In this document: positions 8,183 to 62,787 of the stretch, one piece after another
Layout: each line of letters opens with the position of its first letter
Numbering within the stretch: the stretch's first letter is position 1
NCBI GenBank assembly: GCA_949152475.1
Contig: OX424568.1
Location: 23,287,667 to 23,351,666 of the forward strand
Source: Terebella lapidaria
Taxonomy: Eukaryota > Annelida > Polychaeta > Terebellida > Terebellidae
Length of the DNA stretch: 64,000 nucleotides
Reading direction: 5' to 3'
Notes under the pieces: model-generated
Seen by the model: the letters and a program-made list of their open reading frames with translations, nothing else
Databases searched by the model: none
What the model was told of the DNA's origin: nothing
Position numbers and translations under genes: made by a program

Positions 8183-8191
8183 CACCGAGTC

Positions 8192-23987: not shown

Positions 23988-25369
23988 CTAGCTCATGGTA
24001 TCGTGCTTGAATAAAATTACAGGAATTTGGCCACAATGAACATCTGTGCTCTTCCTTGAAGCAATGTGCTTCATGAATGTGAAAGTCACACCTTCTACTT
24101 CTATATTTGTCAGCCCATTTTCACCCTGATAACACTGGTCTTCCACCAATGTGACCTTCACTGCATGGCGGACACCCGCCTCCAGTCTGACTGGCTGCTC
24201 CAACATCACATCTTGTTTGACTTTGACTGTTTGACAACTGACTTTGAAACCTATTGCATCAGGTCTCCCTCTTTGACCCCATGCAGTACTGTTACTAGTG
24301 TTAGAGAAGCGTACAGCCCTCAGTATTCTGTTGGGAACGTACAATCTTGGGTAGAAGTTGAATCCAGCCTGCTGTAATTCCTTCCTCGAGATCACTCGTT
24401 GCCCACTACCTGACGATTCATGCATCGTGCATGTTGCAAGTAACTTGAAATGTTTATCACTCAGCAAATCCTGTAGGTTGTTGTTAACAATGTCTTTTAT
24501 TGTTGTGCTGCAGAATCTGACCTGGAACAGTGCATCTCCCAGGATGGTTCTGGTGTTCTCTTCTGTGTAGTCTCCTTTCTTTCCAAGTTTGTGCTCTGCC
24601 CATTTCTTGCAGGCCTTCAGTATCTGGATTTCATCATCTACAGATAGTGCATCACATTCCAGTAGCTTGACAAGTGACTCCTTTGATATCTCAAGAAACG
24701 ACTCACTGGCCAATACCTCTAGTGTTTTAATTTGAATCAACTCCAAACATTTAGACATGATATTTTCTAATCTTTGACTAACAGCATGTTCAAACACAGT
24801 ACAGACATTTCCTGTATCCATATTCTCTTCCAAAAATTCCACACACTTTCCCTCGAGACCATCCAAGATATACTTCCTGGCTGTCGTCATCAAGTACAAG
24901 ACATTATCAGCTGTTATGTCTGTTTTTTCGGTATAGATGAACCTGACAAACAACGGTGTCCTAATTTAATCTCACATTCGACAAAACCGAGTGTTCATAC
25001 CGTATTCATATCATAATTGTTATATCATAATATCATAATTTAAGATATGTTATTCAATAGCAGGAAAACTATATAAATATTTACCGCAACATATCTGTGA
25101 AGACAGTTGATTCGATGTCGAAGATGTCCACATCACCAGTTGATTCAGAGAATTTTTTATCAAACATAGCCTCAAACACCAGACTTCTGGACATCAGCAC
25201 GTACTTGTGAGCGGGAACAGTCACCACAGCGCCATCTGGTGACTGTATTGCGAACTTGATGTCACACGCCACCTGGTTGTCAAACATATAACTGTTACAT
25301 TCACGAAGGGTTTTCCCCACTTGCCAGCCTCTCACAGGCTTCACTGCCGCCATCTCCAGTCTTTAAAAT
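23988..25369 (-). CDS. BTB-BACK-PHR domain protein (two coding exons)
   Basis: Exon 1 coding is 25353-25085 and exon 2 is 24942-23988, joined across a GT/AG intron (donor CG|GTAAAT, acceptor TTTGTCAG|GTTC); the join gives a 407-aa protein. BTB domain about residues 26-125 (C-D-I-K-F, P-A-H-K-Y-V-L-M-S-R-S, F-I-Y-T-E), BACK about 132-235, and a C-terminal PHR-type domain about 280-404 (W-G-Q-R-G-R-P-D-A-I-G-F, G-V-T-F-T-F, G-Q-I-P). This order matches the BTBD1/2/3/6 family, adaptors that link substrates to Cul3 ubiquitin ligases. A splice acceptor at 25370-25372 just before the ATG implies a 5'-UTR intron. The PHR domain lacks about 50 residues in its middle relative to the family. A broken duplicate lies at 39597-41762. 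Confidence 0.85.
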
Positions 25370-27013: not shown

Positions 27014-27909
27014 TGTGACGTTTGGTAATGACTTGTTTTCGGTGTGGCCCAAAAAACCTGGTTTCTCTGATCGTATAGACTTTATGTAACTCCCGCTCGT
27101 TGTGATTCGAGAGCCGTCACTAAATTGGTGTCCCCCAACGCTGGTGTATCATCACTCCGTAGCTCACCGGCTTCACTTAGGCAAGAAGCAACTCAGATGT
27201 AAATAAATTGAAGATTTATATACATCAAATCAACTTACAATTGTATGGCTGGTCACCCACGTGACGTACAAATATGAAGTTCAGACATGGAGCACTGTAT
27301 GATCACATTTCAAAAATAAATAGTGCACGAGGGCACAACTAAAAAGAGTTCTTAGCCGGCGGCGTCTCTCTGTCCCTTCCCGTTGAAGTTTCCCGTCCCG
27401 CTTAGTCGAATGGTTTCTCCAGGTAGTCGGTCTAAATCCCGGTTGACTCTAAGGCCCTGAAGAAGGAGTCGTCCGCACGGAGTTCGTCGAGTCCCTTGGC
27501 TGTGGCGGTGACGATCTCCCCACGGTCGATGTCGCTGTTGCAGTGCTCTCAGAGCGGCCGTCCGCTCTCCCTTATATAGCCAGGGTGGCTGCGCGCGCAT
27601 CTTCGTCCGCGAACGTATCTTCCGCACTCTTCTCCACGTGGTGAAGACTGCGTCCGCGAACGGTTCTTCCGCGAAGGCTCCTCTTCCGCGAACGGTGCTT
27701 CCGCGACTGATGCTTCCGCTGACGATGCTTCCGCAATCGTGCTTCCGCGAACGGTTCTTCCGCGAACGATGCTTCCGCTGATGATGCTTCCGCAATCGTG
27801 CTTCCGCGAACGGTTCTTCCGCGAACGGTGTCTTCGCAAGTGGACTTTGTAGATCACGTGACCGTTCCTAACGAACGTTTCAGCGCGGCAGTTGCATGGT
27901 TTTGTTACA
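27014..27909 (-). repeat. 3' LTR of element 1
   Basis: 896 bp, plus strand TGTGACGTTT...TTTTGTTACA. Same length as 37056-37951, and the translations across both are identical. It contains the TTCCGCGAA array (27606-27850) and a TATA box (27571-27578, minus strand). Confidence 0.95.
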
Positions 27910-28029: not shown

Positions 28030-29118
28030 TCACTGGCGATCCACCTCGCTTTCGGACGTCTCCGCCAGCCTGTCTCGAGTGTCTGTATATGCTCGGAGCT
28101 GTTCCCGGAGCAGCTTGGTCTCTCGGACGTGGGCTCGCAGCTCCTTCCGGTGGCTCTTCTCTCGTTGAGAGGCCTCCCCTCGCAGCTGCAGCACCTCGGC
28201 CTCGAGCTGTCTCTGCTCCTCCTTGGCTTGGAGCCGAGCCTCCGCTTGGGTGAGGTGGCGTCGTCCCATGGCTATCGTGGATGCCAGGTCCTCCAGGGCC
28301 TTCTCTCCGGCAGTGACCGCTCTGCCCAGGCCCTCCACATACGGTCGCAGTTGGTCCTCCTCCTCCGGAACGGGCTTGAGGTACCAACTCAGGTCTAGGG
28401 GCTTGTAGGTAGGGGCCGAGTCTCTGGGAACGGGGGGTCCGTCGTCCTCGGGGGTGGGGGCCTCCGGGGATTCCGCCTCTCTCCGCTCCTGCTGAGACTC
28501 CGGTTCCTCTTCGCTATTCGGGGGGTCGTCCTCGGGGTCTGGGGCGTCCTCTGACCTGGGGGCGTCCTCCCGGGGGCTTGACGGCGTGGAGCTGGTCGTC
28601 CCGCTGGCCGCAAAGCTGACAGTCTTCAGCTCAGGGGCAGACACAGTAGTCGGACCATCTCGGGGGTCGGACACGGGCGTGTCGGTCGTCGTCCTCCTCC
28701 GTCCTGGCTTGAGGGTGTTGCCGCTGGCATGCGACGTCTCATGCCGGTCTCTGTCAGCTCGGCGGGCGAATCGCTGGCTGCACATCTTGCAGAGGTGCCG
28801 CCCCTCCTTCTGCGTGTGTTTGGTCGCCACGTGTCGGCTAAAGTTGGATGCCGTCACGTGGATCCGGCAGGGGCTGCACCAGCGTCGCCCTCTCTCGGTG
28901 GACAACTTCCGGGCAGGGGACCGTCGACCTCCTCGGGGCTCCTCACGACGCTCCCGGCTCCTCGAGCGCTCCCGCTTTCGGTCAGGCTTGGTAGGTGGGT
29001 CGCTCATCTTGTCGACTTCAAGGGGCAGAAAGTCAGCCAAGTCGAAATCTGGAACGTCCCCGAAATCTTCGTCTGCAAATGCGGGTATCTCAATGATCTG
29101 CAGAGTTGGTGTGTTCAT
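28030..29118 (-). CDS. Third ORF of element 1: C2H2 zinc-finger and coiled-coil protein
   Basis: 362 aa from an ATG in a good context (A at -3). Residues 8-36 are acidic with bulky hydrophobics (D-F-D-L-A-D-F-L), like an activation region. Residues 46-75 are Arg/Ser-rich and basic. Finger 1: C81, C84, H96, H101. Finger 2: C110, C113, H126, H130. A P/E/S-rich linker spans about 140-250, and a charged coiled coil about 265-360. There is no signal peptide or membrane segment, so it is not env. C2H2 pairs bind DNA or RNA and the coil suggests oligomers; a nuclear regulator acting on the element's own repeats is my inference. It lies 240 bp after pol and has its own TATA box and motif array upstream. 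A capsid-associated nucleic-acid binder is the alternative. In element 2 the fingers are deleted. Confidence 0.8.
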   Translation of the reverse strand: MNTPTLQIIEIPAFADEDFGDVPDFDLADFLPLEVDKMSDPPTKPDRKRERSRSRERREEPRGGRRSPARKLSTERGRRWCSPCRIHVTASNFSRHVATKHTQKEGRHLCKMCSQRFARRADRDRHETSHASGNTLKPGRRRTTTDTPVSDPRDGPTTVSAPELKTVSFAASGTTSSTPSSPREDAPRSEDAPDPEDDPPNSEEEPESQQERREAESPEAPTPEDDGPPVPRDSAPTYKPLDLSWYLKPVPEEEDQLRPYVEGLGRAVTAGEKALEDLASTIAMGRRHLTQAEARLQAKEEQRQLEAEVLQLRGEASQREKSHRKELRAHVRETKLLREQLRAYTDTRDRLAETSESEVDRQ

Positions 29119-29152
29119 GGTTGAAGTGATGACGGAATCGTAGGCCGGCCTG

Positions 29153-29345
29153 CTTATATAGAAAAGGCGCGGACCAGGGATCTGGGGGAAAAAGCATTGT
29201 CGTGGAACGAAATAACGTTTTTCGCTTGCTTCCGCGAACGGTTCTTCCGCGAACGCTGCTTCCGCGAACGTGCTTCCGCGAACGGTACTTCCGCGAACGC
29301 TGCTTCCGCGAACGCTGCTTCCGCGAACGGTTCTTCCGCGAACGC
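29153..29345 (-). promoter_or_regulatory. Internal promoter of the third ORF: TTCCGCGAA array plus TATA box
   Basis: Eight copies of a 15-bp unit (CTTCCGCGAACG plus 3 bp) occupy 29226-29345. In minus-strand sense they are followed by TATATAAG (29153-29160) and the ATG at 29118, some 35-42 bp downstream, leaving a very short 5' UTR. The layout copies the LTR, where the same motif array precedes a TATA box with the same core. Confidence 0.65.
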
Positions 29346-29357
29346 TCCCGTCATCGT

Positions 29358-32300
29358 TTACATCGTTTGGACTGCATTCCCGCTGTTTTCCACTCGTCCC
29401 TCGTCATCACTGGGGGTCCGGACTGGGGTCACATCGTCCGGATTGGGTATCCAGGCGTCGGTTTCAGGGGTGAACCAGCACCTTTTTATATTGTCAATGT
29501 GGACATCTTTAATCTTGCCACCGGGTCGATCTTGTATGGACACCATCCATCCGAGATGAGACTTCACAACGAGATAAGGTCCCGTCCACCCTAGTCCTAG
29601 TTTTGGTCTAGCCTTTGGAGGGTACCAATACATCACCCAGGTGCCCACCGGAAAATGTCGAGCGGCTGATTTTATGTCATGATGGCGCTTTTGTCGCACC
29701 GTAGCCGTCTTCAGGCACTCTCGGGCAGTCTCGTGAGCTTGTATGGTGGCTTCCTTCACCCATTCGACGTATTCGGACGCACACTCGGGGACTGGTCCTC
29801 CCAAATCGTCCGGTTTCGTCCGGTACCTCAGGTCCAATGGGGTGGTTGCCTCCCGTCCCATCATCATTCGAAATGGTGTACACCCGGTGCTTTCGTGTAC
29901 TGATGTTCTATAAGTCGCCATCACGTAGGGCAGATGGTCGTCCCAGTCGTCATGGTTCTCGTCCACGACCACGGCCAGAAGGTTCAGCAGGGTCCGGTTG
30001 AATCGCTCGACCATCCCGTCTGATTTGGCGTGATAAGGGGTCGTCCGAGTCTTCTCCCCTCCTAGGATCTTGATCATCTCAAGGAAAAGCTTACTCTCGA
30101 ACTCTCGTCCCTGGTCGGTGTGTATCTTGGCTGGCATTCCCAGGCGGCACACGAACTCAGTCACAAAGACGTCCGCCACCGTCTGAGCCTCATGGTTGGG
30201 TAGAGCGTAGGCCTCAGTCCACTTGGTGAAATAATCACCCACGACCAGTATATACCGGTTCCCAGAATTGGTGATCGTTCCAGGCTCCAAAATGTCCATG
30301 GCCACCCTTTCTAGCCGATCGCCTACCGGTAGATTTCCCATGGGGTGGTACTTGGGCCCCGGTCGCGGCTTTCTCCCACTACACTTCAGGCACTCCCGGC
30401 ACCAACGCTCCACGTCCTTCGTCATACCCGGCCAGTACATTCTCGCTTTTAGTCGGTGGACTGTTTTGGTGATTCCCTGGTGGCTCATCAGCTTGCCGGT
30501 GTGGACCTCCTTCATGACGGCGCGTCTCAGGACCTGTGGAACGACCAGTTGATGGATTGGTGCGTTCTGGCAAGCCGCTTGGTACCGCCGGTACAGAAGC
30601 CCATCACGTAGCTCCAGCTGGTCCCACTGTTGCCACAGAGTCTTCATTTGCTGACTTTTTGTTCTGACTTCGGGCCATGCAGGTCTCTCAGTGAAAATAT
30701 TCTTCCACCCGAGGATGCCTCCAACTTCAGGGTCGGCTCGTTGAAGGGTCACTAGGTCCTCCTGGGAATAACCATTCAGGACCTGGGCCTCCGGGGCTCC
30801 CTCCATCGGATTCCGGCGTCCTCCCGTAGCCATAGCCCGCGTGACAGCTAGCATTTGTTTGTCTGGATCTCGGAGCACAGGGTTGGGGCATGGGTCCAGG
30901 AAGGGCTCCTCTCGGCAGCGCATCCACACGTCGGCCGTCGCGCCGATCGCTGCTCCGGCCACAACCTCCGGTCCCAAACCATGCAGTGCGAGGAGCATCA
31001 TCAGGAGAAACCAAACCCAGGCAGAGGGGCGGAGCTGATGCAGGGTTCTGCAGACGCTCCTGGCTCCTTCCTCCGTCTGTGGGGGGCTCCGGTCAGGCAG
31101 GCATTCCTCGGTCGGCTGGGTAGTCGTCCTCGGGTCCTCCTGGCAGCGCACCTCCCAGATCTGGAATATCCCGACTCCATCTCCGCAATAGTAGTCCTCC
31201 GTCCAGGGCTCCACAGGGACCTCCCGCAAGATGTTAACTTGAGGTCCTCCGGGGCTCCATCCTTCTCCGCTGATCGGTGGAAGCAGATCCTCGTCAGAGA
31301 GGTCCTCCAGGGGTAGGGGACACTCCTCCTGAGTCGGACAGGCCTCCTCTTCTCCTTCGGGTCTTGTGGTGTGGCGAGGGGCGGGACAATCCGGTCTCCG
31401 GCACTGTCGGCATCTGGACATCCCGTCTGCATTCCCGTGTTGTACTCCCGGTCGGACCTCACACCTGAAGGCGTAGCTGGCGATGCGAGCTGCCCATCTA
31501 GCGATCATTCCTTCCGCATCCCGAAAGTTCAGTAGCCACTTGAGAGAGGCGTGGTCGGTTCGTAGTAAGAACGCTCTCCCCCACAAGAAATGTCTGAAAT
31601 GGTGTATCATACTGACGACGGCCAGGAGCTCCCGCTTGGTGGTGCAGTAATTCCGCTGGGTGTCCCTCAGGGTTCTGGAAGCATAGGCGATCACCCGCTC
31701 TCGTCCGTCCTGCACTTGGGATAAGACGCCTCCCACTCCGTAGCCGCTAGCATCAGTATCTAAAATAAATTCTTGGTCCATGTCAGGGTACACCAGCAGG
31801 GGGTGCTCGGTCAGGGGTTGACGCAGCGCCTCGAACGCCTGCTGATGAGCCTCGCTCCAATGGTAGTTGACTTCCTTCTTTAACAGGTGGTTGAGGGGTC
31901 CCGCTCGGGTGGCAAAGTCAGGGATGAATCTGCGGTAGTACCCCACGAACCCAAGGAAGCTCCTTAGTTCTGTCAAGGTGGTCGGAGGAACCATTTTTGT
32001 TACAGCTTCGACCTTGGCAGGGTCGCACTGGATGCCTCGGTCGGACACGACATGGCCCAGGAAGTTGACCTGTTGTCGAAACAGCTCACACTTGGCGGGT
32101 TTCAGCTTCAGCCCGGCAGCCTGCAGTCTCCGGAACACGTCCTCGAGGTTGTCCACGGCTTCTTGGAAAGTCTTTCCAAGACAGACGACATCGTCCAAAT
32201 AAATTAGACAACGCTTCCATTGGAGTCCCCTCAGTGCCAGCTCCATTAGACGTTCAAAAGTAGCCGGGGCCGTCGCCAATCCAAACGGCATCACTTTAAA

Positions 32301-34430
32301 TTGATAGAGTCCACTACGGGTAGTGAACGCCGTCTTCTCCTTGTCCCTGTCGTCCATCTCGACCTGCCAGTAACCACTAGCCAAGTCTAGCGTCGAAAAA
32401 TATCGTCCTCCTGACAAGGTATCAAAACTCTCGTCGACTCGAGGCAGGGGGTACGCATCCTTCCGGGTGACATCATTTAGACGGCGGTAGTCGACGCAAA
32501 ATCTCAGTGCACCATCCTTCTTTTTCACTAGCACGATGGGAGACGACCATGGACTGTCACTTGGCTCCACAACGTCAGCTTTCAACATCTTGTCGACCTC
32601 GTCCTCGATCAGCTCTTGTTGGTAGTACGGGGCTCTCCTCAGAGGCTGCTTGATCGGGGGGTGATCTCCCGTGTCGATGACGTGTTTCGCCAGGGACGTC
32701 CGGCCCAACCTCCCATCTGGTCCCATAAAGACCTGCTGGTGGCGTCGAAGGAGATCGCTGACGACCTCCACCTCCTTTTCCGTCAAGTTCGGATGCATTC
32801 CCTCCAGGAGCGGTTCTAAATGCTCCGGGCACTCTGGTGTCTTCGTCGACGATTCTGCGTGCATGGCGTGCACTCTGGTTTCGGGCTGCTCAGGCGTCCG
32901 GTTCCGCCACTTGGTGGAGTTTGGTGTAAGGGGCTCATGCTCCCTCCCGCTCTCCTCCCGGTACCACTGTTCCCTTTTAGGTTCATTCTGGGTTGTTTTC
33001 CCTCCATCGGGACGAAATCCCAGGTCGATCACGGCCTCTATTCCGTGAAGCTCGGCTAGGATGGTCCCCATCAGCACAGTGCAAGCTCCAGCGCCGGCGT
33101 TCAGAAGTACCACCGGTACCAGGCGTCCTCGGGGTCGTACCAGGGCTCGTCCCACTACGAGGGGGTCGTCCTCCAACGGCTCTCTTGCGGACTGCACGAG
33201 GCCGGCCTTCGGAACTCCTCCCTCACTTCCTGTCAGCTTGAGGTCCACCATCATCTCTGAAAAGGGTGGCAAGACGACCGTCTCCTCCGTCACCAGTGTG
33301 TAGACGGCGTCCTCGTGGCCCGAGCTCATCACTACGGTAGTGTCGCCCACCTGCCACTCGCCCTTACGCAGATCCAGCTGTCCCCCAATCTGTTGAAGTA
33401 CATCAAGCCCCAACACTCCCGGGATCCCTAGTTTGGCTACCAGTACATCTGCCGACACGAGTCGTGTGCCCAGTAGAAGTTGAACTGTCATCTCTCCTTG
33501 AACCTGTAAGTAGTCTCCGGTTGCTGCCCGTAACCTTATTCTCGTCTGCCTTATCATTGCTTTATGTTCGTCATCCATTTGGTCGAAGAGACACTCGTCC
33601 AGAACGGTGGAAGAGGCACCCGTGTCCACCAACATACGAGTCGCCTTCCCCATAACGTGGCACGCCGCATACCACGCCAATGTGCCTCGGGCACCGGCTG
33701 ACAGCGACACCACCTGGCCATTTCTGTCAATCTTAAGAGAGCTGCCACTCTCCTCAGGGACGCCGCCCTGGATAAGTACTGAGTCGTCCACCCACAGTGA
33801 TGCACCACCCTGGTCCTCTCTGTCAGTCTTAAGGGAATCACTCCCCTCGGAACCGCCGCTCCGGATAAGTAATGAGTCGTCCACCAGCAATAGCTGCTGC
33901 GCTGGCCCCTTGGTCATTCCGCTCCACCGGCCCTCCGTCTCCTCTTTCACGGCCGCTTGTGGTTCAGTTGCATAGGGGGGTCCCTGCTGTTTCGCAGCCT
34001 CCAGCCTCAAGGTTGTAACCTGTTGGTTCTCCTTGCTGCTAGCAGAAACCTCGTTGATGTCTCCGTGGGTCCCCAGACGCTCCACGGCTCCATCGGTCTG
34101 CATTTCGTCGACGTCTCCGCGGGTCATTAGACGCTCCACGGCTCCATCGGTCTGCATTTCCTTGACGTCTCCGCGGGGCATTAGACGCTCCACGGCTCCA
34201 TCGGTTTGCTGTACATTGGCACTCCCGTCTGTGTTGACAGGCTTGCCCTCCAAATAGTCGAGAATTCGATCCTCGAGCTCCTCCTGCGCCCATCCAGTTA
34301 CTTCGGATGCACACCGGAAAAACCTATTAAAAATCTGTGAAACTAAAAATTCCCCCCTGGCAATGTGTTCTTCACGTCTTCGTCGAGCTTCTCGCCTGTG
34401 AAGCCGTGCACACACCTGCCAATGGCCCAT
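29358..34430 (-). CDS. Pol polyprotein of element 1 (protease, RT, RNase H, integrase)
   Basis: 1690 aa. A 51-bp tandem repeat lies in the N-terminal linker (about 34090-34240, three units). Protease D-T-G at 269-271. RT core with F-C-V-D-Y-R and Y-L-D-D at 744-747. RNase H D-T-D-A-S-G from 891. A roughly 200-residue spacer with a hydrophobic stretch at 1137-1166. Integrase HHCC finger at about 1305-1345, catalytic D1379, D1439 and E1475 (D-x35-E), then G-W-T-G-P-Y near the C-terminus. The domain order is that of Ty3/Gypsy. Pol begins 24 nt after the gag stop and in another frame, so expression needs a frameshift, reinitiation or an upstream start. All catalytic residues are present, so the enzyme set looks functional. 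Confidence 0.95.
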   Translation of the reverse strand: MGHWQVCARLHRREARRRREEHIARGEFLVSQIFNRFFRCASEVTGWAQEELEDRILDYLEGKPVNTDGSANVQQTDGAVERLMPRGDVKEMQTDGAVERLMTRGDVDEMQTDGAVERLGTHGDINEVSASSKENQQVTTLRLEAAKQQGPPYATEPQAAVKEETEGRWSGMTKGPAQQLLLVDDSLLIRSGGSEGSDSLKTDREDQGGASLWVDDSVLIQGGVPEESGSSLKIDRNGQVVSLSAGARGTLAWYAACHVMGKATRMLVDTGASSTVLDECLFDQMDDEHKAMIRQTRIRLRAATGDYLQVQGEMTVQLLLGTRLVSADVLVAKLGIPGVLGLDVLQQIGGQLDLRKGEWQVGDTTVVMSSGHEDAVYTLVTEETVVLPPFSEMMVDLKLTGSEGGVPKAGLVQSAREPLEDDPLVVGRALVRPRGRLVPVVLLNAGAGACTVLMGTILAELHGIEAVIDLGFRPDGGKTTQNEPKREQWYREESGREHEPLTPNSTKWRNRTPEQPETRVHAMHAESSTKTPECPEHLEPLLEGMHPNLTEKEVEVVSDLLRRHQQVFMGPDGRLGRTSLAKHVIDTGDHPPIKQPLRRAPYYQQELIEDEVDKMLKADVVEPSDSPWSSPIVLVKKKDGALRFCVDYRRLNDVTRKDAYPLPRVDESFDTLSGGRYFSTLDLASGYWQVEMDDRDKEKTAFTTRSGLYQFKVMPFGLATAPATFERLMELALRGLQWKRCLIYLDDVVCLGKTFQEAVDNLEDVFRRLQAAGLKLKPAKCELFRQQVNFLGHVVSDRGIQCDPAKVEAVTKMVPPTTLTELRSFLGFVGYYRRFIPDFATRAGPLNHLLKKEVNYHWSEAHQQAFEALRQPLTEHPLLVYPDMDQEFILDTDASGYGVGGVLSQVQDGRERVIAYASRTLRDTQRNYCTTKRELLAVVSMIHHFRHFLWGRAFLLRTDHASLKWLLNFRDAEGMIARWAARIASYAFRCEVRPGVQHGNADGMSRCRQCRRPDCPAPRHTTRPEGEEEACPTQEECPLPLEDLSDEDLLPPISGEGWSPGGPQVNILREVPVEPWTEDYYCGDGVGIFQIWEVRCQEDPRTTTQPTEECLPDRSPPQTEEGARSVCRTLHQLRPSAWVWFLLMMLLALHGLGPEVVAGAAIGATADVWMRCREEPFLDPCPNPVLRDPDKQMLAVTRAMATGGRRNPMEGAPEAQVLNGYSQEDLVTLQRADPEVGGILGWKNIFTERPAWPEVRTKSQQMKTLWQQWDQLELRDGLLYRRYQAACQNAPIHQLVVPQVLRRAVMKEVHTGKLMSHQGITKTVHRLKARMYWPGMTKDVERWCRECLKCSGRKPRPGPKYHPMGNLPVGDRLERVAMDILEPGTITNSGNRYILVVGDYFTKWTEAYALPNHEAQTVADVFVTEFVCRLGMPAKIHTDQGREFESKLFLEMIKILGGEKTRTTPYHAKSDGMVERFNRTLLNLLAVVVDENHDDWDDHLPYVMATYRTSVHESTGCTPFRMMMGREATTPLDLRYRTKPDDLGGPVPECASEYVEWVKEATIQAHETARECLKTATVRQKRHHDIKSAARHFPVGTWVMYWYPPKARPKLGLGWTGPYLVVKSHLGWMVSIQDRPGGKIKDVHIDNIKRCWFTPETDAWIPNPDDVTPVRTPSDDEGRVENSGNAVQTM

Positions 34431-34453: not shown

Positions 34454-36991
34454 CTACTGGTTTTCCGACACCTCGTCTGTCAAACTGTTCCGCTCACCAA
34501 TCTCCTCGATTAGTCGACTCAAGCGCTCCTCCTTGGTCCGAGGTGGCGGCCGATCTGGACACTGGTACTTCCGATGACCCGGCTTCCCACAGTACCAACA
34601 GTCATCTGGTCCCGGCCTAGCGCTTGGTCCCTTGTTCTCAGCAGTGGCGGCCCTCGGCTTGATGGATAGCACCTGCTCACACAGCTCGATTAGTCGATCC
34701 AGCTTCCTGTCTTGGCTCTCAAAGAGCCCCTTGAAGTAGGGAAGTCTGGGTAGACCCGCTACGTTCGGCTGGTTGCTCTGCTGCCCACTGGTGGTAATCT
34801 CGCCTCCCTGCTGGTTCTTCAACAGCTGTAGGACCCGTCCTAGAGCTGGCTCGGAGTCCTCCGACTCTATGGACATCACCGGCTTCCCAGGCTTGGGTTT
34901 GACACATTCGTACTGGGTCACGAACGCTATGGCCTCCTCCATGGTCTTCATCTTCCTCATGAGCGCCATCACCTTCATGTCCCCATCTGGATGGCCCTTC
35001 CAGAAGTGGTCTAAGGCGATAGCCTCCTGAGCTGCGGAGTTCAGATCCGGATAACCACGGCCGGCCAGTCGCTGCAACTCATAGCCGTACTGCTGGGGTG
35101 TCTCTGCCTTCCTGCGGGTTCTCTGTCCCAAGGTCGCCTTGTAGGACTCCTCCTGACAGTCAGGGTCGAATCGTAGGGTCAGCTTGTCGGTCAGAACGTC
35201 GATGTCCCTCCGGTCTGCAGGACTCAGGCTGGTCAGCATTCGTCGCGCCTCTCCTGTCAAGCTCCCGGCTAAGTAGACGCCCTGTTCCCGCTTGCTCCAT
35301 CCGTTGACCTCTGCGATGACGTCAAAGTGGGCCCGGTACACCGGCCACTCTATGGAAGTCCCATCGAACTTGTCAGGGGTCAGCATCTTCCGGTTCCTTC
35401 TGCCGTTCTGATTCCAGACTGTGCTGTCCTCGGACGACGAGTCCTCCTGCCTCCGTCTCGGCCTAGGGCTTCGTCGGTGCAGTGGCGGTCCCCGCCTCGG
35501 TGGTCTCCTCCCCCGTCCTGGGTAACCATGGCTGCTCTCGGTCCCTCCATCAGATGAAGGCCCCTCATCGCCCGATGATGAGAAAGGGTGCTGTCTCCGG
35601 CCTCCCTGGGTGACTGAAATAGAAGCTGGATTTCTCCAGGAGGCTGGCTGTCTCGGTTGTCGACTGGGTGAAGACCTCCCTCTTCCGCGAACGCTGTCTT
35701 CCGCGAACCCTCCGCGAACACTGTCTTCCGCGAACCTTCCGCGAACGGACTCCTCCGCCAACAGCTCCCGAAGAAGTTCTTCCGCGAACAGGCCTCTTCC
35801 GCGAACGCCGTCTTCCGCGAGTCTTCCGCGAACGGGCTCGTCCGCCAAGATGTCTCGGAGACGTCCCTCCACAAAAGATGTACGTCCGCGAACGCCATCT
35901 TCCGCGAGTCTTCCGCGAACCGGCTCATCCGCGAATGGTCTTCCCCGTCTATTCTGAAAAACTGGAAAGGAAGATTGGTCGCCTGGATCACTCCTTTCGT
36001 CGAGCCGCCGTCTGGGTGAAGACTCCTCTCTTCCGCGAACACTCTCTTCCGCGAGTCGTCCTCGTCCGCGAACGTGGTCGTCCGCGAAGGGCCCTCCCCG
36101 GTCACAAGCGTCCTCGTCACCAAAGACTCCCCCTCGCCCACGAGCCCGTTCATCCACGAAGGATCCCCGGTTGCAAGCGTCCCTGTCGCCGAAGAATGCC
36201 TCTCGTCCGCGAATGTTCTCTTCCGCGAAAAGTCCTCTCCCTCTCGAGCTGCTCTCTTGGGTCGGAGCCCAAGTAACCCGTCCTCCAGTCACTCCCGTTT
36301 GTCGACTCATCACACCAGACCGCTTCCCTGTTGCACCAGACTGCTGCTGGGACTGGTCCCAAAGCCGTCTCAATGCTGCATTCTCTGGAGGTGCCACACT
36401 TGGACTCTGCTCCGGTAGCTGTAGCCGATCCCTCCTCGCCCAGATTTCGCCGTCCTCCCCGTCCAGATTGACGTACTCCGGTCCCAGCACTCGTCGGAAC
36501 TCGGGGCCCCTCCTAACGCTCTCAAGGTAGGTTGACCTCTCCCTGTCTCGATCGTGCTGCCACCCAGAGTCGTGTCTGAAAAGAAAACGGTTGTCGGGTG
36601 TCTGGCTCCGGGGTCTCTGTTGACTCGTCGACTGGCCCATGGAAGGTCTCGACCTCCCTGGTTGCTCCTCACTCGTCGAAACGTCCCGTCTACCCCTGGC
36701 TGTGAAGCTGCTCTTCCGCGAACGGTCGTCTTCCGCGAACGTTGTCTTCCGCGAACGGTCGTCGGCCTCTTCCGCCAAGGTCGTCTTCCGCGAACGGTTG
36801 TCGTCCGCGAACGTCTTCCGCGAACGGTCGTCTTCCGCGAACGTCTTCCGCGAACGGTCGTCTCCCTCTTCCGCAAAGGTCGGCTTCCGCGAACCGCTGT
36901 CTTCCTCGTCCGCAAGTGAGGCCGTCCGCGAAGAGTCTTCCTCTTCACCTCCTGTCTTCCCTGGGGCAGTTTCGTCGTTTTCGCCGGACAT
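34454..36991 (-). CDS. Gag of element 1
   Basis: 845 aa from M-S-G-E-N-D-E, the first Met after the primer site. The N-terminal 500 residues are low-complexity and charged, largely built from the TTCCGCGAA DNA motif (residues about 20-95 and 250-435), which appears as R-S-R-K, F-A-E-D/E or V-R-G-R depending on frame. A retrotransposon capsid domain follows at about 530-700 (F-D-G-T-S-I-E-W, L-A-G-S-L-T-G-E-A-R). A CCHC zinc knuckle is at 798-811 (C-W-Y-C-G-K-P-G-H-R-K-Y-Q-C). Gag assembles the particle and packages RNA. Length is about double that of a usual Gypsy gag because of the repeat-built N-terminus. Confidence 0.93.
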   Translation of the reverse strand: MSGENDETAPGKTGGEEEDSSRTASLADEEDSGSRKPTFAEEGDDRSRKTFAEDDRSRKTFADDNRSRKTTLAEEADDRSRKTTFAEDDRSRKSSFTARGRRDVSTSEEQPGRSRPSMGQSTSQQRPRSQTPDNRFLFRHDSGWQHDRDRERSTYLESVRRGPEFRRVLGPEYVNLDGEDGEIWARRDRLQLPEQSPSVAPPENAALRRLWDQSQQQSGATGKRSGVMSRQTGVTGGRVTWAPTQESSSRGRGLFAEENIRGREAFFGDRDACNRGSFVDERARGRGGVFGDEDACDRGGPFADDHVRGRGRLAEESVRGREESSPRRRLDERSDPGDQSSFPVFQNRRGRPFADEPVRGRLAEDGVRGRTSFVEGRLRDILADEPVRGRLAEDGVRGRGLFAEELLRELLAEESVRGRFAEDSVRGGFAEDSVRGRGRSSPSRQPRQPASWRNPASISVTQGGRRQHPFSSSGDEGPSSDGGTESSHGYPGRGRRPPRRGPPLHRRSPRPRRRQEDSSSEDSTVWNQNGRRNRKMLTPDKFDGTSIEWPVYRAHFDVIAEVNGWSKREQGVYLAGSLTGEARRMLTSLSPADRRDIDVLTDKLTLRFDPDCQEESYKATLGQRTRRKAETPQQYGYELQRLAGRGYPDLNSAAQEAIALDHFWKGHPDGDMKVMALMRKMKTMEEAIAFVTQYECVKPKPGKPVMSIESEDSEPALGRVLQLLKNQQGGEITTSGQQSNQPNVAGLPRLPYFKGLFESQDRKLDRLIELCEQVLSIKPRAATAENKGPSARPGPDDCWYCGKPGHRKYQCPDRPPPRTKEERLSRLIEEIGERNSLTDEVSENQ

Positions 36992-37055: not shown

Positions 37056-37951
37056 TGTGACGTTTGGTAATGACTTGTTTTCGGTGTGGCCCAAAAAACC
37101 TGGTTTCTCTGATCGTATAGACTTTATGTAACTCCCGCTCGTTGTGATTCGAGAGCCGTCACTAAATTGGTGTCCCCCAACGCTGGTGTATCATCACTCC
37201 GTAGCTCACCGGCTTCACTTAGGCAAGAAGCAACTCAGATGTAAATAAATTGAAGATTTATATACATCAAATCAACTTACAATTGTATGGCTGGTCACCC
37301 ACGTGACGTACAAATATGAAGTTCAGACATGGAGCACTGTATGATCACATTTCAAAAATAAATAGTGCACGAGGGCACAACTAAAAAGAGTTCTTAGCCG
37401 GCGGCGTCTCTCTGTCCCTTCCCGTTGAAGTTTCCCGTCCCGCTTAGTCGAATGGTTTCTCCAGGTAGTCGGTCTAAATCCCGGTTGACTCTAAGGCCCT
37501 GAAGAAGGAGTCGTCCGCACGGAGTTCGTCGAGTCCCTTGGCTGTGGCGGTGACGATCTCCCCACGGTCGATGTCGCTGTTGCAGTGCTCTCAGAGCGGC
37601 CGTCCGCTCTCCCTTATATAGCCAGGGTGGCTGCGCGCGCATCTTCGTCCGCGAACGTATCTTCCGCACTCTTCTCCACGTGGTGAAGACTGCGTCCGCG
37701 AACGGTTCTTCCGCGAAGGCTCCTCTTCCGCGAACGGTGCTTCCGCGACTGATGCTTCCGCTGACGATGCTTCCGCAATCGTGCTTCCGCGAACGGTTCT
37801 TCCGCGAACGATGCTTCCGCTGATGATGCTTCCGCAATCGTGCTTCCGCGAACGGTTCTTCCGCGAACGGTGTCTTCGCAAGTGGACTTTGTAGATCACG
37901 TGACCGTTCCTAACGAACGTTTCAGCGCGGCAGTTGCATGGTTTTGTTACA
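37056..37951 (-). repeat. 5' LTR of element 1
   Basis: 896 bp, the promoter LTR in minus-strand sense. I found no mismatch to 27014-27909 at a constant offset of 10,042. Confidence 0.95.
37613..37892 (-). promoter_or_regulatory. LTR promoter of element 1: TTCCGCGAA array and TATA box
   Basis: In minus-strand sense, six perfect TTCCGCGAA copies and about eight variants (TTCCGCAAT, TTCCGCTGA, GTCCGCGAA) at 37648-37876 lie upstream of TATATAAG (37613-37620). Transcription would begin around 37589. The array is in U3, where enhancers of LTR elements lie. Confidence 0.7.
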
Positions 37952-52784: not shown

Positions 52785-53720
52785 TGTGACGTTTGGTAAT
52801 GACTTGTTTTCGGTGTGGCCCAAAAAACCTGGTTTCTCTGATCGTATAGACTTTATGTAACTCCCGCTCGTTGTGATTCGAGAGCCGTCACTAATCTGGC
52901 GTTCCCCAACGCTGGTGTATCATCACTCCGTAGCTTACCGGCTTCACTTAGGCAAGAAGCAACTCAGATGTAAATAAATTGAAGATTTATATACATCAAA
53001 TCAACTTACAATTGTATGGCTGGTCACCCACGTGACGTACAAATATGAAGTTCAGACATGGAGCACTGTATGATCACATTTCAAAAATAAATAGTGCACG
53101 AGGGCACAACTAAAAAGAGTTCTTAGCCGGCGGCGTCTCTCTGTCCCTTCCCGTTGAAGTTTCCCGTCCCGTTTAGTCGAATGGTTTCTCCAGGTAGTCG
53201 GTCTAATCCCGGTTGACTCTAAGGCCCTGAAGAAGGAGTCGTCCGCACGGAGTTCGTCGAGTCCCTTGGCTGTGGCGGTGACGATCTCCCCACGGTCGAT
53301 GTCGCTGTTGCAGTGCTCTCAGAGCGGCCGTCCGCTCTCCCTTATATAGCCGGGCTGGCTGCGCGCGCATCTTCGTCCGCGAACGTATCTTCCGCACTCT
53401 TCTCCACGTGGTGAAGACTGCGTCCGCGAACGGTTCTTCCGCGAAGGCTGCTTCCGCGTACTCTTCCGCGAACGTGCTTCCGCGAAGGGTACTTCCGCCG
53501 CTGGTGCTTCCGCGACTGATGCTTCCGCTGATGATGCTTCCGCAATCGTGCTCCCACGAACGGTTCTTCCGCGAACGATGCTTCCGCTGATGATGCTTCC
53601 GCAATCGTGCTTCCGCGAACGGTTCTTCCGCGAACGGTGTCTTCGCAAGTGGACTTTGAAGGTCACATGACCGTTCCTAACGAACGTTTTTAGCGCGGCA
53701 GTTGCATGTATTTTGTTACA
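52785..53720 (-). repeat. 3' LTR of element 2
   Basis: 936 bp, TGTGACG...TTGTTACA. It differs from the right LTR at several sites (for example CTCCCACGAAC against CTTCCGCGAAC near 53550, and the bases around 53350). It is 40 bp longer than the LTR of element 1, through the TTCCGCGAA array. TATA at 53341-53348 (minus). Confidence 0.94.
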
Positions 53721-53840
53721 ACTCCACCCTTTCTGGAGATCAACGTCCCCGTTGATCCTTTCTCTCTCTTCTCTTCTCTTCTTCCTCCTTCTTCGTCTTT
53801 TCCTGCCTGTTTGTTGTTTACAGGGCTCTCTCCCTCCACT

Positions 53841-54315
53841 TCACTGGCGATCCACCTCGCTTTCGGACGTCTCCGCCAGCCTGTCCCGAGTGTCTGTGTA
53901 TGCTCGGAGCTGTTCCCGGAGCAGCTTAGTCTCTCGGACGTGGGCCCGCAGCTCCTTCCGGTGGCTCTTCTCTCGTTGAGAGGCCTCCCCTCGCAGCTGC
54001 AGCACCTCGGCCTCGAGCTGTCTCTGCTCCTCTTTGGCTTGGAGCCGAGCCTCCGCCTGGGTCAGGTGGCGTCGTCCCATGGCTATAGTGGACGCCAGGT
54101 CCTCCAGGGCCTTCTCTCCGGCAGTGACCGCTCTGCCCAGGCCCTCCACATACGGTCGCAGTTGGTCCTCCTCCTCCGGAACGGGCTTGAGGTACCAACT
54201 CAGGTCTAGGGGCTTGTAGGTAGGGGCCGAGTCTCTGGGAACGGGGGGTCCGTCGTCCTCGGGGGTGGGGGCCTCCGGGGTTTCCGCCTCTCTCCGCTCC
54301 TGCTGAGACTCCGGT
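53841..54315 (-). pseudogene. Third ORF of element 2, C-terminal coiled-coil part only
   Basis: Only the linker and coiled coil remain, corresponding to the last 155 or so residues of the element 1 protein. The acidic region, basic region, both zinc fingers, the TATA box and the motif array are removed by the 913-bp deletion. Upstream it is fused to the end of pol in a different frame. Confidence 0.85.
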
Positions 54316-57300
54316 TCGGACTGGGGTCACATCGTCCGGGTTGGGTATCCAGGTGTCAGTTTCAGGGGTAAACCAGCACCTTTTTATATTGTCAATGTGG
54401 ACATCTTTAATCTTGCCACCGGGTCGATCTTGTATGGACACCATCCATCCGAGATGAGACTTCACAACCAGATAAGGTCCCGTCCACCCTAGTCCTAGTT
54501 TTGGTCTAGCCTTTGGAGGGTACCAATACATCACCCAGGTGCCCACCGGAAAATGTCGAGCGGCTGATTTCACGTCATGATGGCGCTTTTGTCGCACCAT
54601 AGCCGTCTTCAGGCACTCTCGGGCAGTCTCATGAGCTTGTATGGTGGCTTCCTTCACCCATTCGACGTATTCGGACGCACACTCGGGGACTGGTCCTCCC
54701 AAATCGTCCGGTTTCGTCCGGTACCTCAGGTCCAATGGGGTGGTTGCCTCCCGTCCCATCATCATTCGAAATGGTGTACACCCGGTGCTTTCGTGTACTG
54801 ATGTTCTATAAGTCGCCATCACGTAGGGCAGATGGTCGTCCCAGTCGTCATGGTTCTCGTCCACGACCACGGCCAGAAGGTTCAGCAGGGTCCGGTTGAA
54901 TCGCTCGACCATCCCGTCTGATTTGGCGTGATAAGGGGTCGTCCGAGTCTTCTCCCCTCCTAGGATCTTGATCATCTCAAGGAAAAGCTTACTCTCGAAC
55001 TCTCGTCCCTGGTCGGTATGTATCTTGGCTGGCATTCCCAGGCGGCACACGAACTCAGTCACAAAGACGTCCGCCACCGTCTGGGCCTCATGGTTGGGTA
55101 GAGCGTAGGCCTCAGTCCACTTGGTGAAATAATCACCCACGACCAGTATATACCGGTTCCCAGAATTGGTGATCGTTCCAGGCTCCAAAATGTCCATGGC
55201 CACCCTTTCTAGCCGATCGCCTACCGGTAGATTTCCCATGGGGTGGTACTTGGGCCCCGGTCGCGGCTTTCTCCCACTACACTTCAGGCACTCCCGGCAC
55301 CAACGCTCCACGTCCTTCGTCATACCCGGCCAGTACATTCTCGCTTTTAGTCGGTGGACTGTTTTGGTGACTCCCTGGTGGCTCATCAGCTTGCCGGTGT
55401 GGACCTCCTTCATGACGGCGCGTCTCAGGACCTGTGAAACGACCAGTTGATGGATTGGTGCGTTCTGGCAAGCCGCTTGGTACCGCCGGTACAGAAGCCC
55501 ATCACGTAGCTCCAGCTGGTCCCACTGTTGCCACAGAGTCTTCCTTTGCTGACTTTTTGTTCTGACTTCGGGCCATGCAGGTCTCTCAGTGAAAATATTC
55601 TTCCACTCGAGGATGCCTCCAACTTCAGGGTCGGCTCGTTGAAGGGTCACTAGGTCCTCCTGGGAATAACCATTCAGGACCTGGGCCTCCGGGGCTCCCT
55701 CCATCGGATTCCGGCGTCCTCTCGTAGCCATAGCCCGCGTGACAGCTAGCATTTGTTTGTCTGGATCTCGGACCACAGGGTTGGGGCATGGGTCAAGGAA
55801 GGGCTCCTCTCGGCAGCGCATCCACACGTCGGCCGTCGCGCCGATCGCTGCTCCGGCCACAACCTCCGGTCCCAAACCATGCAGTGCGAAGAGCATCATC
55901 AGGAGAAACCAAACCCAGGCAGAGGGGCGGAGCTGATGCAGGGTTCTGCAGACGCTCCTGGCTCCTTCCTCCGTCTGTGGGGGGCTCCGGTCAGGCAGGC
56001 ACTCCTCGGTCGGCTGGGTAGTCGTCCTCGGGTCCTCCTGGCAGCGCACCTCCCAGATCTGGAATATCCCGACTCCATCTCCGCAATAGTAGTCCTCTGT
56101 CCAGGGCTCCACAGGGACCTCCCGCAAGATGTTAACTTGAGGTCCTCCGGGGCTCCATCCTTCTCCGCTGATTGGTGGAAGCAGATCCTCGTCAGAGAGG
56201 TCCTCCAGGGGTAGGGGACACTCCTCCTGAGTCGGACAGGCCTCCTCTTCTCCTTCGGGTCTTGTGGTGTGGCGAGGGGCGGGACAATCCGGTCTCCGGC
56301 ACTGTCGGCATCTGGACATCCCGTCTGCATTCCCGTGTTGTACTCCCGGCCGGACCTCACACCTGAAGGCGTAGCTGGCGATGCGAGCTGCCCATCTAGC
56401 GATCATTCCTTCCGCATCCCGAAAGTTCAGCAGCCACTTGAGAGAGGCGTGGTCGGTTCGTAGTAAGAACGCTCTCCCCCACAAGAAATGTCTGAAATGG
56501 TGTATCATACTGACGACGGCCAGGAGCTCCCGCTTGGTGGTGCAGTAATTCCGCTGGGTGTCCCTCAGGGTTCTGGAAGCATAGGCGATCACCCGCTCTC
56601 GTCCGTCCTGCACTTGGGATAAGACGCCTCCCACTCCGTGTCAGGGTACACCAGCAGGGGGTGCTCGGTCAGGGGTTGACGCAGCGCCTCGAACGCCTGC
56701 TGATGAGCCTCGCTCCAATGGTGGTTGACTTCCTTCTTTAACAGGTGGTTGAGGGGTCCCGCTCGGGTGGCAAAGTCAGGGATGAATCTGCGGTAGTACC
56801 CCACGAACCCAAGGAAGCTCCTTAGTTCTGTCAAGGTGGTCGGAGGAACCATTTTCGTTACAGCTTCGACCTTGGCAGGGTCGCACTGGATGCCTCGGTC
56901 GGACACGACATGGCCCAGGAAGTTGACCTGTTGTCGAAACAGCTCACACTTGGCGGGTTTCAGCTTCAGCCCGGCAGCCTGCAGTCTCCGGAACACGTCC
57001 TCGAGGTTGTCCACGGCTTCTTGGAAAGTCTTTCCAAGACAGACGACATCGTCCAAATAAATTAGACAACGCTTCCATTGGAGTCCCCTCAGTGCCAGCT
57101 CCATTAGACGTTCAAAAGTAGCCGGGGCCGTCGCCAATCCAAACGGCATCACTTTAAATTGATAGAGTCCACTACGGGTAGTGAACGCCGTCTTCTCCTT
57201 GTCCCTGTCGTCCATCTCGACCTGCCAGTAACCACTAGCCAAGTCTAGCGTCGAAAAATATCGTCCTCCTGACAAGGTATCAAAACTCTCGTCGACTCGA

Positions 57301-59226
57301 GGCAGGGGGTACGCATCCTTCCGGGTGACATCATTTAGACGGCGGTAGTCGACGCAAAATCTCAGTGCACCATCCTTCTTTTTCACTAGCACGATGGGAG
57401 ACGACCATGGACTGTCGCTTGGCTCCACAACGTCAGCTTTCAACATCTTGTCGACCTCGTCCTCGATCAGCTCTTGTTGGTAGTACGGGGCTCTCCTCAG
57501 AGGCTGCTTGATCGGGGGGTGATCTCCCGTGTCGATGACGTGTTTCGCCAGGGACGTCCGGTCCAACCTCCCATCTGGTCCCATAAAGACCTGCTGGTGG
57601 CGTCGAAGGAGATCGCTGACGACCTCCACCTCCTTTTCCGTCAAGTCAGGATGCATTCCCTCCAGGAGCGGTTCTAAATGCTCCGGGCACTCTGGTGTCT
57701 TCGTCGACGATTCTGCGTGCATGGCGCGCACTCTGGTTTCGGGCTGCTCAGGCGTCTGGTTCCGCCACTTGGTGGAGTTTGGTGTAAGTGGCTCATGCTC
57801 CCTCCCGCTCTCCTCCCGGTACCACTGTTCCCTTTTAGGTTCATTCTGGGTTGTTTTCCCTCCATCGGGACGAAATCCTAGGTCGATCACGGCCTCTATT
57901 CCGTGAAGCTCAGCTAAGATGGTCCCCATCAGCACAGTGCAAGCTCCAGCGCCGGCGTTCAGAAGTACCACCGGTACCAGGCGTCCTCGGGGTCGTACCA
58001 GGGCTCGTCCCACTACGAGGGGGTCGTCCTCCAACCGCTCTCTTGCGGACTGCACGAGGCCGGCCTTCGGAACTCCTCCCTCACTTCCTGTCAGCTTGAG
58101 GTCCACCATCATCTCTGAAAAGGGTGGCAAGACGACCGTCTCCTCCGTCACCAGTGTGTAGACGGCGTCCTCGTGGCCCGAGCTCATCACTACGGTAGTG
58201 TCGCCCACCTGCCACTCGCCCTTACGCAGATCCAGCTGTCCCCCAATCTGTTGAAGTACATCAAGCCCCAACACTCCCGGGATCCCTAGTTTGGCTACCA
58301 GTACGTCTGCCGACACGAGTCGTGTGCCCAGTAGAAGTTGAACTGTCATCTCTCCTTGAATCTGTAAGTAGTCTCCGGTTGCTGCCCGTAACCTTATTCT
58401 CGTCTGCCTTATCATTGCTTTATGTTCGTCATCCATTTGGTCGAAGAGACACTCGTCCAGAACGGTGGAAGAGGCACCCGTGTCCACCAACATACGAGTC
58501 GCCTTCCCCATAACGTGGCACGCCGCATACCACGCCAATGTGCCTCGGGCACCGGCTGACAGCGACACCACCTGGCCATTTCTGTCAATCTTAAGAGAGC
58601 TGCCACTCTCCTCAGGGACGCCGCCCTGGATAAGTACTGAGTCGTCCACCCACAGTGATGCACCACTGTCAGTCTTAAGGGAATCACTCCCCTCGGAACC
58701 GCCGCTCCGGATAAGTAATGAGTCGTCCACCAGCAATAGCTGCTGCGCTGGCCCCTTGGTCATTCCGCTCCACCGGCCCTCCGTCTCCTCTTTCACGGCC
58801 GCTTGTGGTTCAGTTGCATGGGGGGGGGGGTCCCTGCTGTTTCGCAGCCTCCAGCCTCAAGGTTGTAACCTGTTGGTTCTCCTTGCTGCTAGCAGAAACC
58901 TCGTTGATGTCTCCGTGGGTCCCCAGACGCTCCACGGCTCCATCGGTCTGCATTTCGTCGATGTCTCCGCGGGTCATTAGACGCTCCGCGGCTCCATCAG
59001 TTTGCTGTACATTGGCACTCCCGTCTGTGTTGACAGGCTTGCCCTCCAAATAGTCGAGAATTCGATCCTCGAGCTCCTCCTGCGCCCATCCAGTTACTTC
59101 GGATGCACACCGGAAAAACCTATTAAAAATCTGTGAAACTAAAAATTCCCCCCTGGCAATGTGTTCTTCACGTCTTCGTCGAGCTTCTCGCCTGTGAAGC
59201 CGTGCACACACCTGCCAATGGCCCAT
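54316..59226 (-). pseudogene. Pol of element 2 (broken in three pieces)
   Basis: Same domains as element 1 pol. The first 138 codons (58810-59226) end early because the G run at 58820-58830 has 11 instead of 6 G. The next frame (56589-58796) carries protease and RT with Y-L-D-D intact. The 40-bp loss at 56638 removes the first catalytic Asp of RNase H (D-T-D-A-S) and shifts the frame. The last frame (down to 54316, then into third-ORF sequence to 53926) carries the spacer and a complete integrase. No full-length Pol can be made. Confidence 0.92.
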
Positions 59227-59249
59227 ACGGTTGGGGGCTGGTATGAGCC

Positions 59250-61784: not shown

Positions 61785-61826
61785 GAGTGATGCTGAGGTT
61801 CGTTCCCTGGCAGTAGACCCTCGGGG

Positions 61827-61844
61827 ATCCTGGTCACGGCACCA
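61827..61844 (-). promoter_or_regulatory. Primer-binding site of element 2 (tRNA-His)
   Basis: The minus strand reads TGGTGCCGTGACCAGGAT, three bases inside the 5' LTR. The complement ends …CCTGG-TCACGGC-A-CCA, the T-stem, acceptor half, discriminator and CCA of an animal tRNA-His. This is the intact form of the site that has an extra base in element 1. Confidence 0.85.
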
Positions 61845-61847
61845 AGT

Positions 61848-62783
61848 TGTGACGTTTGGTATTGACTTGTTTTCGGTGTGGCCCAAAAAACCTGGTTTCT
61901 CTGATCGTATAGACTTTATGTAACTCCCGCTCGTTGTGATTCGAGAGCCGTCACTAATCTGGCGTTCCCCAACGCTGGTGTATCATCACTCCGTAGCTTA
62001 CCGGCTTCACTTAGGCAAGAAGCAACTCAGATGTAAATAAATTGAAGATTTATATACATCAAATCAACTTACAATTGTATGGCTGGTCACCCACGTGACG
62101 TACAAATATGAAGTTCAGACATGGAGCACTGTATGATCACATTTCAAAAATAAATAGTGCACGAGGGCACAACTAAAAAGAGTTCTTAGCCGGCGGCGTC
62201 TCTCTGTCCCTTCCCGTTGAAGTTTCCCGTCCCGTTTAGTCGAATGGTTTCTCCAGGTAGTCGGTCTAATCCCGGTTGACTCTAAGGCCCTGAAGAAGGA
62301 GTCGTCCGCACGGAGTTCGTCGAGTCCCTTGGCTGTGGCGGTGACGATCTCCCCACGGTCGATGTCGCTGTTGCAGTGCTCTCAGAGCGGCCGTCCGCTC
62401 TCCCTTATATAGCCAGGGTGGCTGCGCGCGCATCTTCGTCCGCGAACGTATCTTCCGCACTCTTCTCCACGTGGTGAAGACTGCGTCCGCGAACGGTTCT
62501 TCCGCGAAGGCTGCTTCCGCATACTCTTCCGCGAACGTGCTTCCGCGAAGGGTACTTCCGCCGCTGGTGCTTCCGCGACTGATGCTTCCGCTGATGATGC
62601 TTCCGCAATCGTGCTTCCGCGAACGGTTCTTCCGCGAACGATGCTTCCGCTGATGATGCTTCCGCAATCGTGCTTCCGCGAACGGTTCTTCCGCGAACGG
62701 TGTCTTCGCAAGTGGACTTTGAAGGTCACATGACCGTTCCTAACGAACGTTTTTAGCGCGGCAGTTGCATGTATTTTGTTACA
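61848..62783 (-). repeat. 5' LTR of element 2
   Basis: 936 bp; promoter LTR. TATA at 62404-62411 (minus) with the TTCCGCGAA array upstream in sense (about 62439-62700). Confidence 0.94.
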
Positions 62784-62787
62784 ATAA

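Follow-up and report, generated by a model that had tools for sequence, protein, structure and literature searches.

In foamy viruses a DNA-binding transactivator, Tas/Bel1, is driven by a second promoter situated towards the genome's 3' end, and it is described as acting on that promoter as well as on the LTR, which constitutes positive feedback (PMC3798896). A layout that may be comparable was observed in element 1, one of two closely related Ty3/Gypsy elements (element 1 and element 2, both on the minus strand) found in a stretch of 64,000 nucleotides from Terebella lapidaria, hereafter the window: a tandem array and a TATA box lie ahead of its third open reading frame (ORF3) as a putative second promoter, with sites in common with the LTR. 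Foamy viruses belong to Retroviridae and have an env gene with the promoter inside it, whereas element 1 belongs to Ty3/Gypsy and has ORF3 in place of a recognised env; its Cys2-His2 clusters and tandem arrays also set it apart from them. The circuit proposed below would operate in a foamy-like manner, element 1 itself being no member of the foamy viruses.

Caulimoviruses likewise use a second promoter, the 19S promoter, for a regulator (P6) in a reverse-transcribing element; these are plant viruses, however, and P6 acts on translation, unlike the proposed role of ORF3. VANDAL elements of Arabidopsis are Mutator-like DNA transposons. For their element-encoded protein VANC, family-specific target words in dense tandem arrays of the same orientation have been described (PMC5735166). 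The arrays of element 1 are also dense and in a single orientation; hypomethylation has been demonstrated for VANC, whereas for ORF3 it would be a hypothesis. Retand, a plant Ty3/Gypsy element, is described as having extra ORFs for possibly DNA-binding proteins, together with tandem arrays between pol and the 3' LTR for which a regulatory role has been suggested (PMC11963269). The extra ORFs of Retand are mainly antisense and carry a TRP28 domain (PMC11963269), whereas ORF3 of element 1 is in sense and carries C2H2 clusters; element 1 also differs in that its array and TATA box match those of the LTR and that the fingers of ORF3 allow a target to be predicted. No description of an element-encoded transcription factor with an internal promoter in Ty3/Gypsy was found in the accessible portions of the open-licence literature.

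The anatomy of element 1 is real and unusual (Table 1). Its two LTRs are 896 bp long and 100% identical to each other, with TG..CA termini and a 4-bp target-site repeat (CAAA). In a Pfam scan for which pol was split into two pieces, the domain order was protease, RT, RNase H and integrase, the last three above their cut-offs and the protease just under its own (27.9 vs 28.2 bits); the CCHC-knuckle match of gag reached 18.7 bits against a cut-off of 20.8. By its LTR ends, target-site repeat and domain order, element 1 is a Ty3/Gypsy (Metaviridae) element, and neither env nor Tas was found among the Pfam matches of gag, the pol pieces and ORF3. The family to which it belongs is young and abundant. 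ORF3 occurs at about 100% identity at no fewer than 113 genomic places (113 scored among 1712 candidates), and a 26-base word of the array has 2492 occurrences in the 761.6-Mb genome.

Table 1. Positions of the features discussed, in window coordinates or, for family B, in the fetched copy named
Feature	Position	Strand	Remarks
5' LTR of element 1	37056..37951	-	exact TTCCGCGAA 37709 to 37867; CTATATAAG 37613-37621
gag	34454..36991	-	845 aa; weak CCHC-knuckle match; 35 sense GCGGA cores
gag/pol overlap	34454..34493	-	heptamer G_GAA_AAC begins at 34466, in the phase of gag
pol	29358..34430	-	1690 aa; protease, RT, RNase H, integrase (Pfam)
pol end/ORF3 open-frame overlap	29358..29403	-	G_GAA_AAC in pol phase, first base 29391
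Internal array	29227..29346	-	eight units, core GCGGAAG
Internal TATA box CTATATAAG	29153..29161	-	9-mer identical to that in the window's four LTRs
Initiator-like TCACTTC (YYANWYY)	29123..29129	-	candidate +1 = A 29127
ORF3	28030..29118	-	362 aa; ATG at 29118
3' LTR of element 1	27014..27909	-	array 27649-27835; CTATATAAG 27571-27579
Element 2	52785..62784	-	LTRs 52785-53721 and 61848-62784; target-site repeat ATAA
Third, old Ty3/Gypsy element	287-13673	-	LTRs 287-1006 and 12984-13673, 87% alike
Family B third ORF	L060:2239-4917	minus	fetched copy
Family B third ORF	L061:4951-7629	plus	fetched copy

Beyond the pol stop at 29358, eight plus-strand copies of TTCCGCGAA occupy 29230-29342 with a step of 15 bp (once 14 bp), and TATATAAG begins 42 bp ahead of the ATG of ORF3. 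A first-pass annotation of this DNA had described eight 15-bp units after pol, a TATA box, an ATG about 40 bp further on, and an LTR with the same array upstream of a TATA box with the same core; apart from the single shorter step these statements are borne out, the TATA 9-mer being present in all four LTRs of the window. By chance, 0.25 occurrences of CTTATATAG would be expected in 64 kb, against the five observed (the four LTRs and 29153), and 0.42 of TTCCGCGAA, against 70, every one of which (70/70) lies within elements 1 and 2. The motif extends beyond the promoters, as gag holds two further clusters; the array of TTCCGCGAA exists as described, but its best-conserved core is GCGGAnG in element sense and not the whole 9-mer. 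In the U3 of the element 1 LTR (27580-27909), 6 of the 14 sense GCGGA words fall inside an exact TTCCGCGAA. Internally, 75 bp separate the TATA box from the final unit of the contiguous array; in the LTR this spacing is 79 bp, with two further cores closer to TATA, at 47 and 29 bp. The candidate +1 lies 33 bp from the first T of the TATA box and would leave a leader of only 9 nt; a transcription start at this A is possible, judging from the initiator-like sequence, with a leader that is very short.

The internal promoter as simply a recent copy of U3 was considered and rejected, as the core promoters, compared with the array left out, have no long match beyond the TATA 9-mer. The best local match between the LTR core promoter and the internal TATA region had a score reached in 20 of 500 shuffles, and it pairs an array-like word of the LTR with the start of the ORF3 coding sequence.

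The first-pass annotation had also called ORF3 a C2H2 and coiled-coil protein of 362 aa; the length agrees, and putative fingers and a modelled C-terminal helix are present. Residues 1-37 are acidic-aromatic (10 acidic and 4 aromatic), residues 38-80 form a basic Arg/Ser stretch (17/43 basic), two Cys2-His2 clusters occupy residues 81-101 and 110-130, the linker beyond them is rich in Pro, Ser and Thr with more acidic than basic residues, and the C-terminus (254-361) is a single long helix in the AlphaFold model, with block pLDDT mostly 86-97. The zinc fingers remain below Pfam cut-offs (best 16.5 bits vs 40). Compared with C-x2-C-x12-H-x3-5-H, finger 2 fits in spacing with Arg at the usual Leu, and finger 1 has x11. 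In AlphaFold models made without an alignment no regular second finger was formed and the finger region was poor, and a Foldseek search with the first, weak ORF3 model gave nothing at E 0.001. The Tramtrack DNA-binding domain was the best of five PDB sequence matches (E 0.028, the five reaching E up to 1), and SNFxRH in the first helix is common to it and ORF3. A second in-frame ATG is present at 29007 (Met38). As the leader would be very short, leaky scanning could yield a shorter ORF3 that starts after the acidic N-terminus and might antagonise the full-length form. In IMG/VR, the ORF3 peptide pattern matched 14 stretches, none coding for a relative, and the two-unit array pattern had no match. 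A protein collection contained one near-identical ORF3 (P0002, 365 aa), the source contig of which is 1767 bases long and, if a transcript, could bear on the internal promoter.

Counted back from the first zinc-binding His, the base-contact residues are R95/N92/T89 in finger 1 and R125/D122/R119 in finger 2. The 3' triplet of a target is read by the N-terminal finger. In the zinc-finger code, Arg specifies G, Asn specifies A and Asp specifies C (PMC12264921); finger 1 would then read G-A-n and finger 2 G-C-G, so that, with the N-terminal finger on the 3' triplet, the predicted target is 5'-GCGGAn-3', which is the core of the array. The same source offers a precedent in finger 3 of TFIIIA, with Lys/Asn/Thr, where Thr falls short of any base (PMC12264921). 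The code gives no prediction for the third base of the finger 1 triplet, and the sixth base of the core, mostly A but variable in gag, is the position that finger 1 is expected to ignore. The order of array and TATA box, their near-equal spacing and the coincidence of the predicted target with the array core all speak for a regulator that has its own promoter and targets itself. The proposal of the first-pass annotation, a separate regulator under the same control as the LTR, is thus supported in part, by the layout and the predicted target, but it had not considered a frameshift route at the pol/ORF3 overlap, which is weighed below.

The core was also evident when 5-mers were counted without choosing array units: among 512 5-mers, GCGGA is the most frequent in each of the two U3 regions, shares rank 1 with four others in the spacer and rank 2 with one other in gag, and comes only 176th in pol. 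In element sense the array units read TTCGCGGAAG with variable flanks, the best-kept part in U3 being GCGGAnG, and GCGGAAG occurs outside the two elements only twice in 27.7 kb (both strands). Sense copies of GCGGA number 14 in the U3 of element 1, 16 in that of element 2, 8 in the spacer and 35 in gag, with 0, 0, 1 and 1 antisense copies, respectively. In gag, 33 GCGGA[ACG]G are distributed 16/10/7 across the three reading frames, where they encode FAED-, VRGR- and RSRK-like peptides, whereas 2000 synonymous shuffles preserving protein and codon usage gave a mean of 9.7 and a maximum of 16; the gag counts are non-independent through tandem duplication, and the flanks are nonetheless more variable than the core. 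All 17 Ala codons in FAE-type context are GCG, against 6/37 elsewhere in gag. The protein collection held two gag relatives (P0003 and P0004, 48% identity), in which repeats of FAED/RSRK type were not seen by eye, with one FADE in P0004.

In all, 48 copies were fetched, 30 as the best ORF3 matches and 18 as stretches on contig 1 chosen by array hits, from 100 listed array-word places, with ORF3 not a criterion. The array, the TATA box at -42 and the ATG were present in 46/48, and a full-length ORF3 in 45/48 (362 aa in 36 and 365 aa in 9); the array has 6-9 units and ORF3 is 96-100% alike. That array, TATA and ORF3 are found together lends weak support, in copies that are nearly identical and were picked by ORF3 or array. 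Among the array-picked copies ORF3 is intact in 15/18, which excludes from the variant count L046 and L051 (ORF3 start missing) and L050 (frame broken). Variants found in at least two of these 15 copies were 8 synonymous to 1 non-synonymous and singletons 6 to 15 (Fisher p 0.004; neutral N:S = 2.4), and because of this difference ORF3 was probably under constraint during the spread of the family. Variant codons over all 45 full-length copies (18 synonymous, 16 non-synonymous) were not used as a test since 30 copies had been chosen by protein identity.

Several copies lack much of ORF3. Element 2, with LTRs 99.36% identical and pol divided between two open frames, has no counterpart of 28507-29414, that is, of the pol end, array, TATA box and ORF3 codons 1-204. 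The same deletion junction was detected at 12 places on 8 contigs, of which element 2 and L051 are two, the other ten being known from a 26-base junction word and the twelve possibly stemming in part from DNA duplication. A line without the internal promoter and fingers thus seems to have multiplied, and as the same junction recurs in 12 places, ORF3 seems dispensable in cis, which fits a factor acting in trans without being proof of it.

The third, old element of the window belongs to the clade of element 1 (RT 67% identical over 85 residues). Roughly 5.8 kb separate its integrase ORF from its 3' LTR, and no TTCCGCGAA was found in it; its family, designated family B, was found at 150 or more places (150 scored among 6862 candidates). 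Two fetched copies, L060 and L061, both encode a third ORF of 892 aa that begins ~1.38 kb after pol. In its product a segment containing several Cys and His residues was noted by eye, and the C-terminus is a coiled coil, for which the Pfam coiled-coil types were all below cut-off. The C2H2 pattern had no match in its frame, no zinc finger was present among the 25 of 32 Pfam matches listed, and Tandem Repeats Finder, run on L060, gave no tandem array of the element 1 kind. Family members having the ORF and lacking array and TATA had been named in the first-pass annotation as evidence against its proposal; the family B third ORF does come without the array, but BLAST gave no significant similarity to ORF3 (E 0.5 or worse), so it answers to that description only loosely. 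The pol piece of L060 and L061 is 99.1% identical and the LTR region 91-100% up to its far end, whereas their third ORFs are only 79% alike (82% at the protein level); of the codons with a single change, 284 are synonymous and 77 non-synonymous. This gene has apparently been swapped between subfamilies and is under strong purifying selection. Members of the clade may commonly carry a coiled-coil third gene downstream of pol, whereas the array promoter has so far been seen only in the family of element 1.

We consider that ORF3 may be a Tas-like retrotransposon regulator whose expression comes, in part at least, from the internal promoter (the array, TATA box and initiator that lie between pol and its own gene) and which acts on the arrays, a reading whose chances we regard as evenly balanced. 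Its two fingers would bind GCGGAn, of which there are 14 in each LTR U3, 35 in gag and 8 ahead of ORF3; the acidic N-terminus would activate transcription or keep the DNA unsilenced, and the C-terminal helix would oligomerise the protein on closely spaced sites. A little ORF3 would lead to more ORF3 and then to LTR output, in positive feedback, and the protein would work in trans on every array-bearing copy. Transcription from the internal TATA box, binding, activation, oligomerisation and action in trans are all steps that we infer. An extended form, to which we would give somewhat less than even credence, is a self-contained circuit of about 70 copies of the word per element (in both LTRs, before ORF3 and in gag in three frames), with ORF3-less copies spreading by using the protein in trans.

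The alternative with the most in its favour, though we hold it to be unlikely, is that a -1 ribosomal frameshift, the second in the element, takes place at G_GAA_AAC close to the pol end and makes ORF3 the tail of a Gag-Pol-ORF3 polyprotein; the array and TATA stretch would then be coding, and ORF3 would act inside the particle or, joined to the integrase, as its DNA-binding tail. This heptamer, the likely slippery site of gag/pol, has only three copies in element 1, two of which are in phase, one in the gag/pol overlap and one in the pol/ORF3 overlap; in dipteran viruses it is listed as a predicted or potential -1 slippery site (PMC3832450). From 29403 to the ATG, through array and spacer, the ORF3 frame has no stop, and the same is true of all 45 fetched full-length ORF3 copies, in which spacer lengths of 227, 242 and 257 bases preserve the phase; this extension contains no ATG, GTG or TTG. 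The array, however, is free of stops in every frame, which makes openness weak evidence, and in 2 of the 113 scored places a stop interrupts the extension with ORF3 intact (open frames 422 and 444). The pol/ORF3 site is followed by no marked RNA structure (z -0.22, as against -1.6 for gag/pol). Variants of the extension in the ORF3 frame, array left out (shared, 3 non-synonymous to 1 synonymous; single, 3 to 4), are few and without clear protein constraint; the TATA box is left unexplained, and the family B third ORF, starting well past the pol stop, has no overlap with pol. Frameshifting and an internal promoter are not exclusive and both routes may operate.

Rather improbable, in our judgement, is that ORF3 is mainly a VANC-like anti-silencer, coating the CpG-rich arrays of LTR, gag and spacer and removing methylation or heterochromatin with no recruitment of polymerase. 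Dense arrays of one orientation are found outside the promoters as well, as is described for VANC21 (PMC5735166), and the 12 places without the front half of ORF3 also point that way, but the acidic N-terminus and the array-TATA layout are equally compatible with classical activation.

It is doubtful that both promoters are driven by a host factor binding the arrays, for example one of the ETS class with its GGAA core, while ORF3 has a different target. The arrays contain GGAAG, which we take to be an ETS-type core, and GGAA is present in 12/14 U3 cores of element 1 and 14/16 of element 2. In gag of element 1, however, the base after GCGGA is not A in 11/35 cores (8 C, 2 G, 1 T), which lose GGAA yet keep GCGGA and so are a better match to the finger prediction; a host factor unrelated to ORF3 would also leave the match between the predicted target and the array core unexplained. 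ETS binding is ranked lower than a self-targeting ORF3.

There is little to recommend the view that the arrays are neutral products of slippage and ORF3 a captured gene unrelated to them. Tandem duplication alone can multiply a word and the unit number does differ between copies, but the excess of gag cores in three frames over synonymous shuffles, the top rank of the predicted 5-mer, the TATA 9-mer common to LTRs and spacer and the signs of purifying selection on ORF3 all stand against it. Least probable of all is a motif that works in RNA, with ORF3 binding GCGGAnG of the genomic transcript in order to package it or to control its translation, as the nearly exclusive sense orientation of GCGGA in both U3s, spacer and gag would allow, but tandem growth alone preserves orientation, the U3 copies are confined to the 3' end in the RNA and the array lies upstream of the TATA boxes.

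If the regulator reading is true, a foamy-type circuit would have arisen independently in Ty3/Gypsy, providing a ready system for control by an element of its own copy number in trans and showing how parasites of the parasite, the ORF3-less copies, arise; its protein-DNA pair, with both sides a few hundred bases apart, would be able to co-evolve.

Some further repeats were observed in the window. Adjoining element 1 is a tandem array of ~31-bp units containing ACGTG (38857-39283), next to which an inverted stretch related to it was found (38667-38851). A satellite-like tandem repeat of 134 bp occupies 42720-43642, with related pieces at 21838-22016 and 50641-50868. Element 1 is also flanked by two copies, 77% identical, of a BTB-BACK-PHR gene fragment (23988-24953 and 40537-41244).
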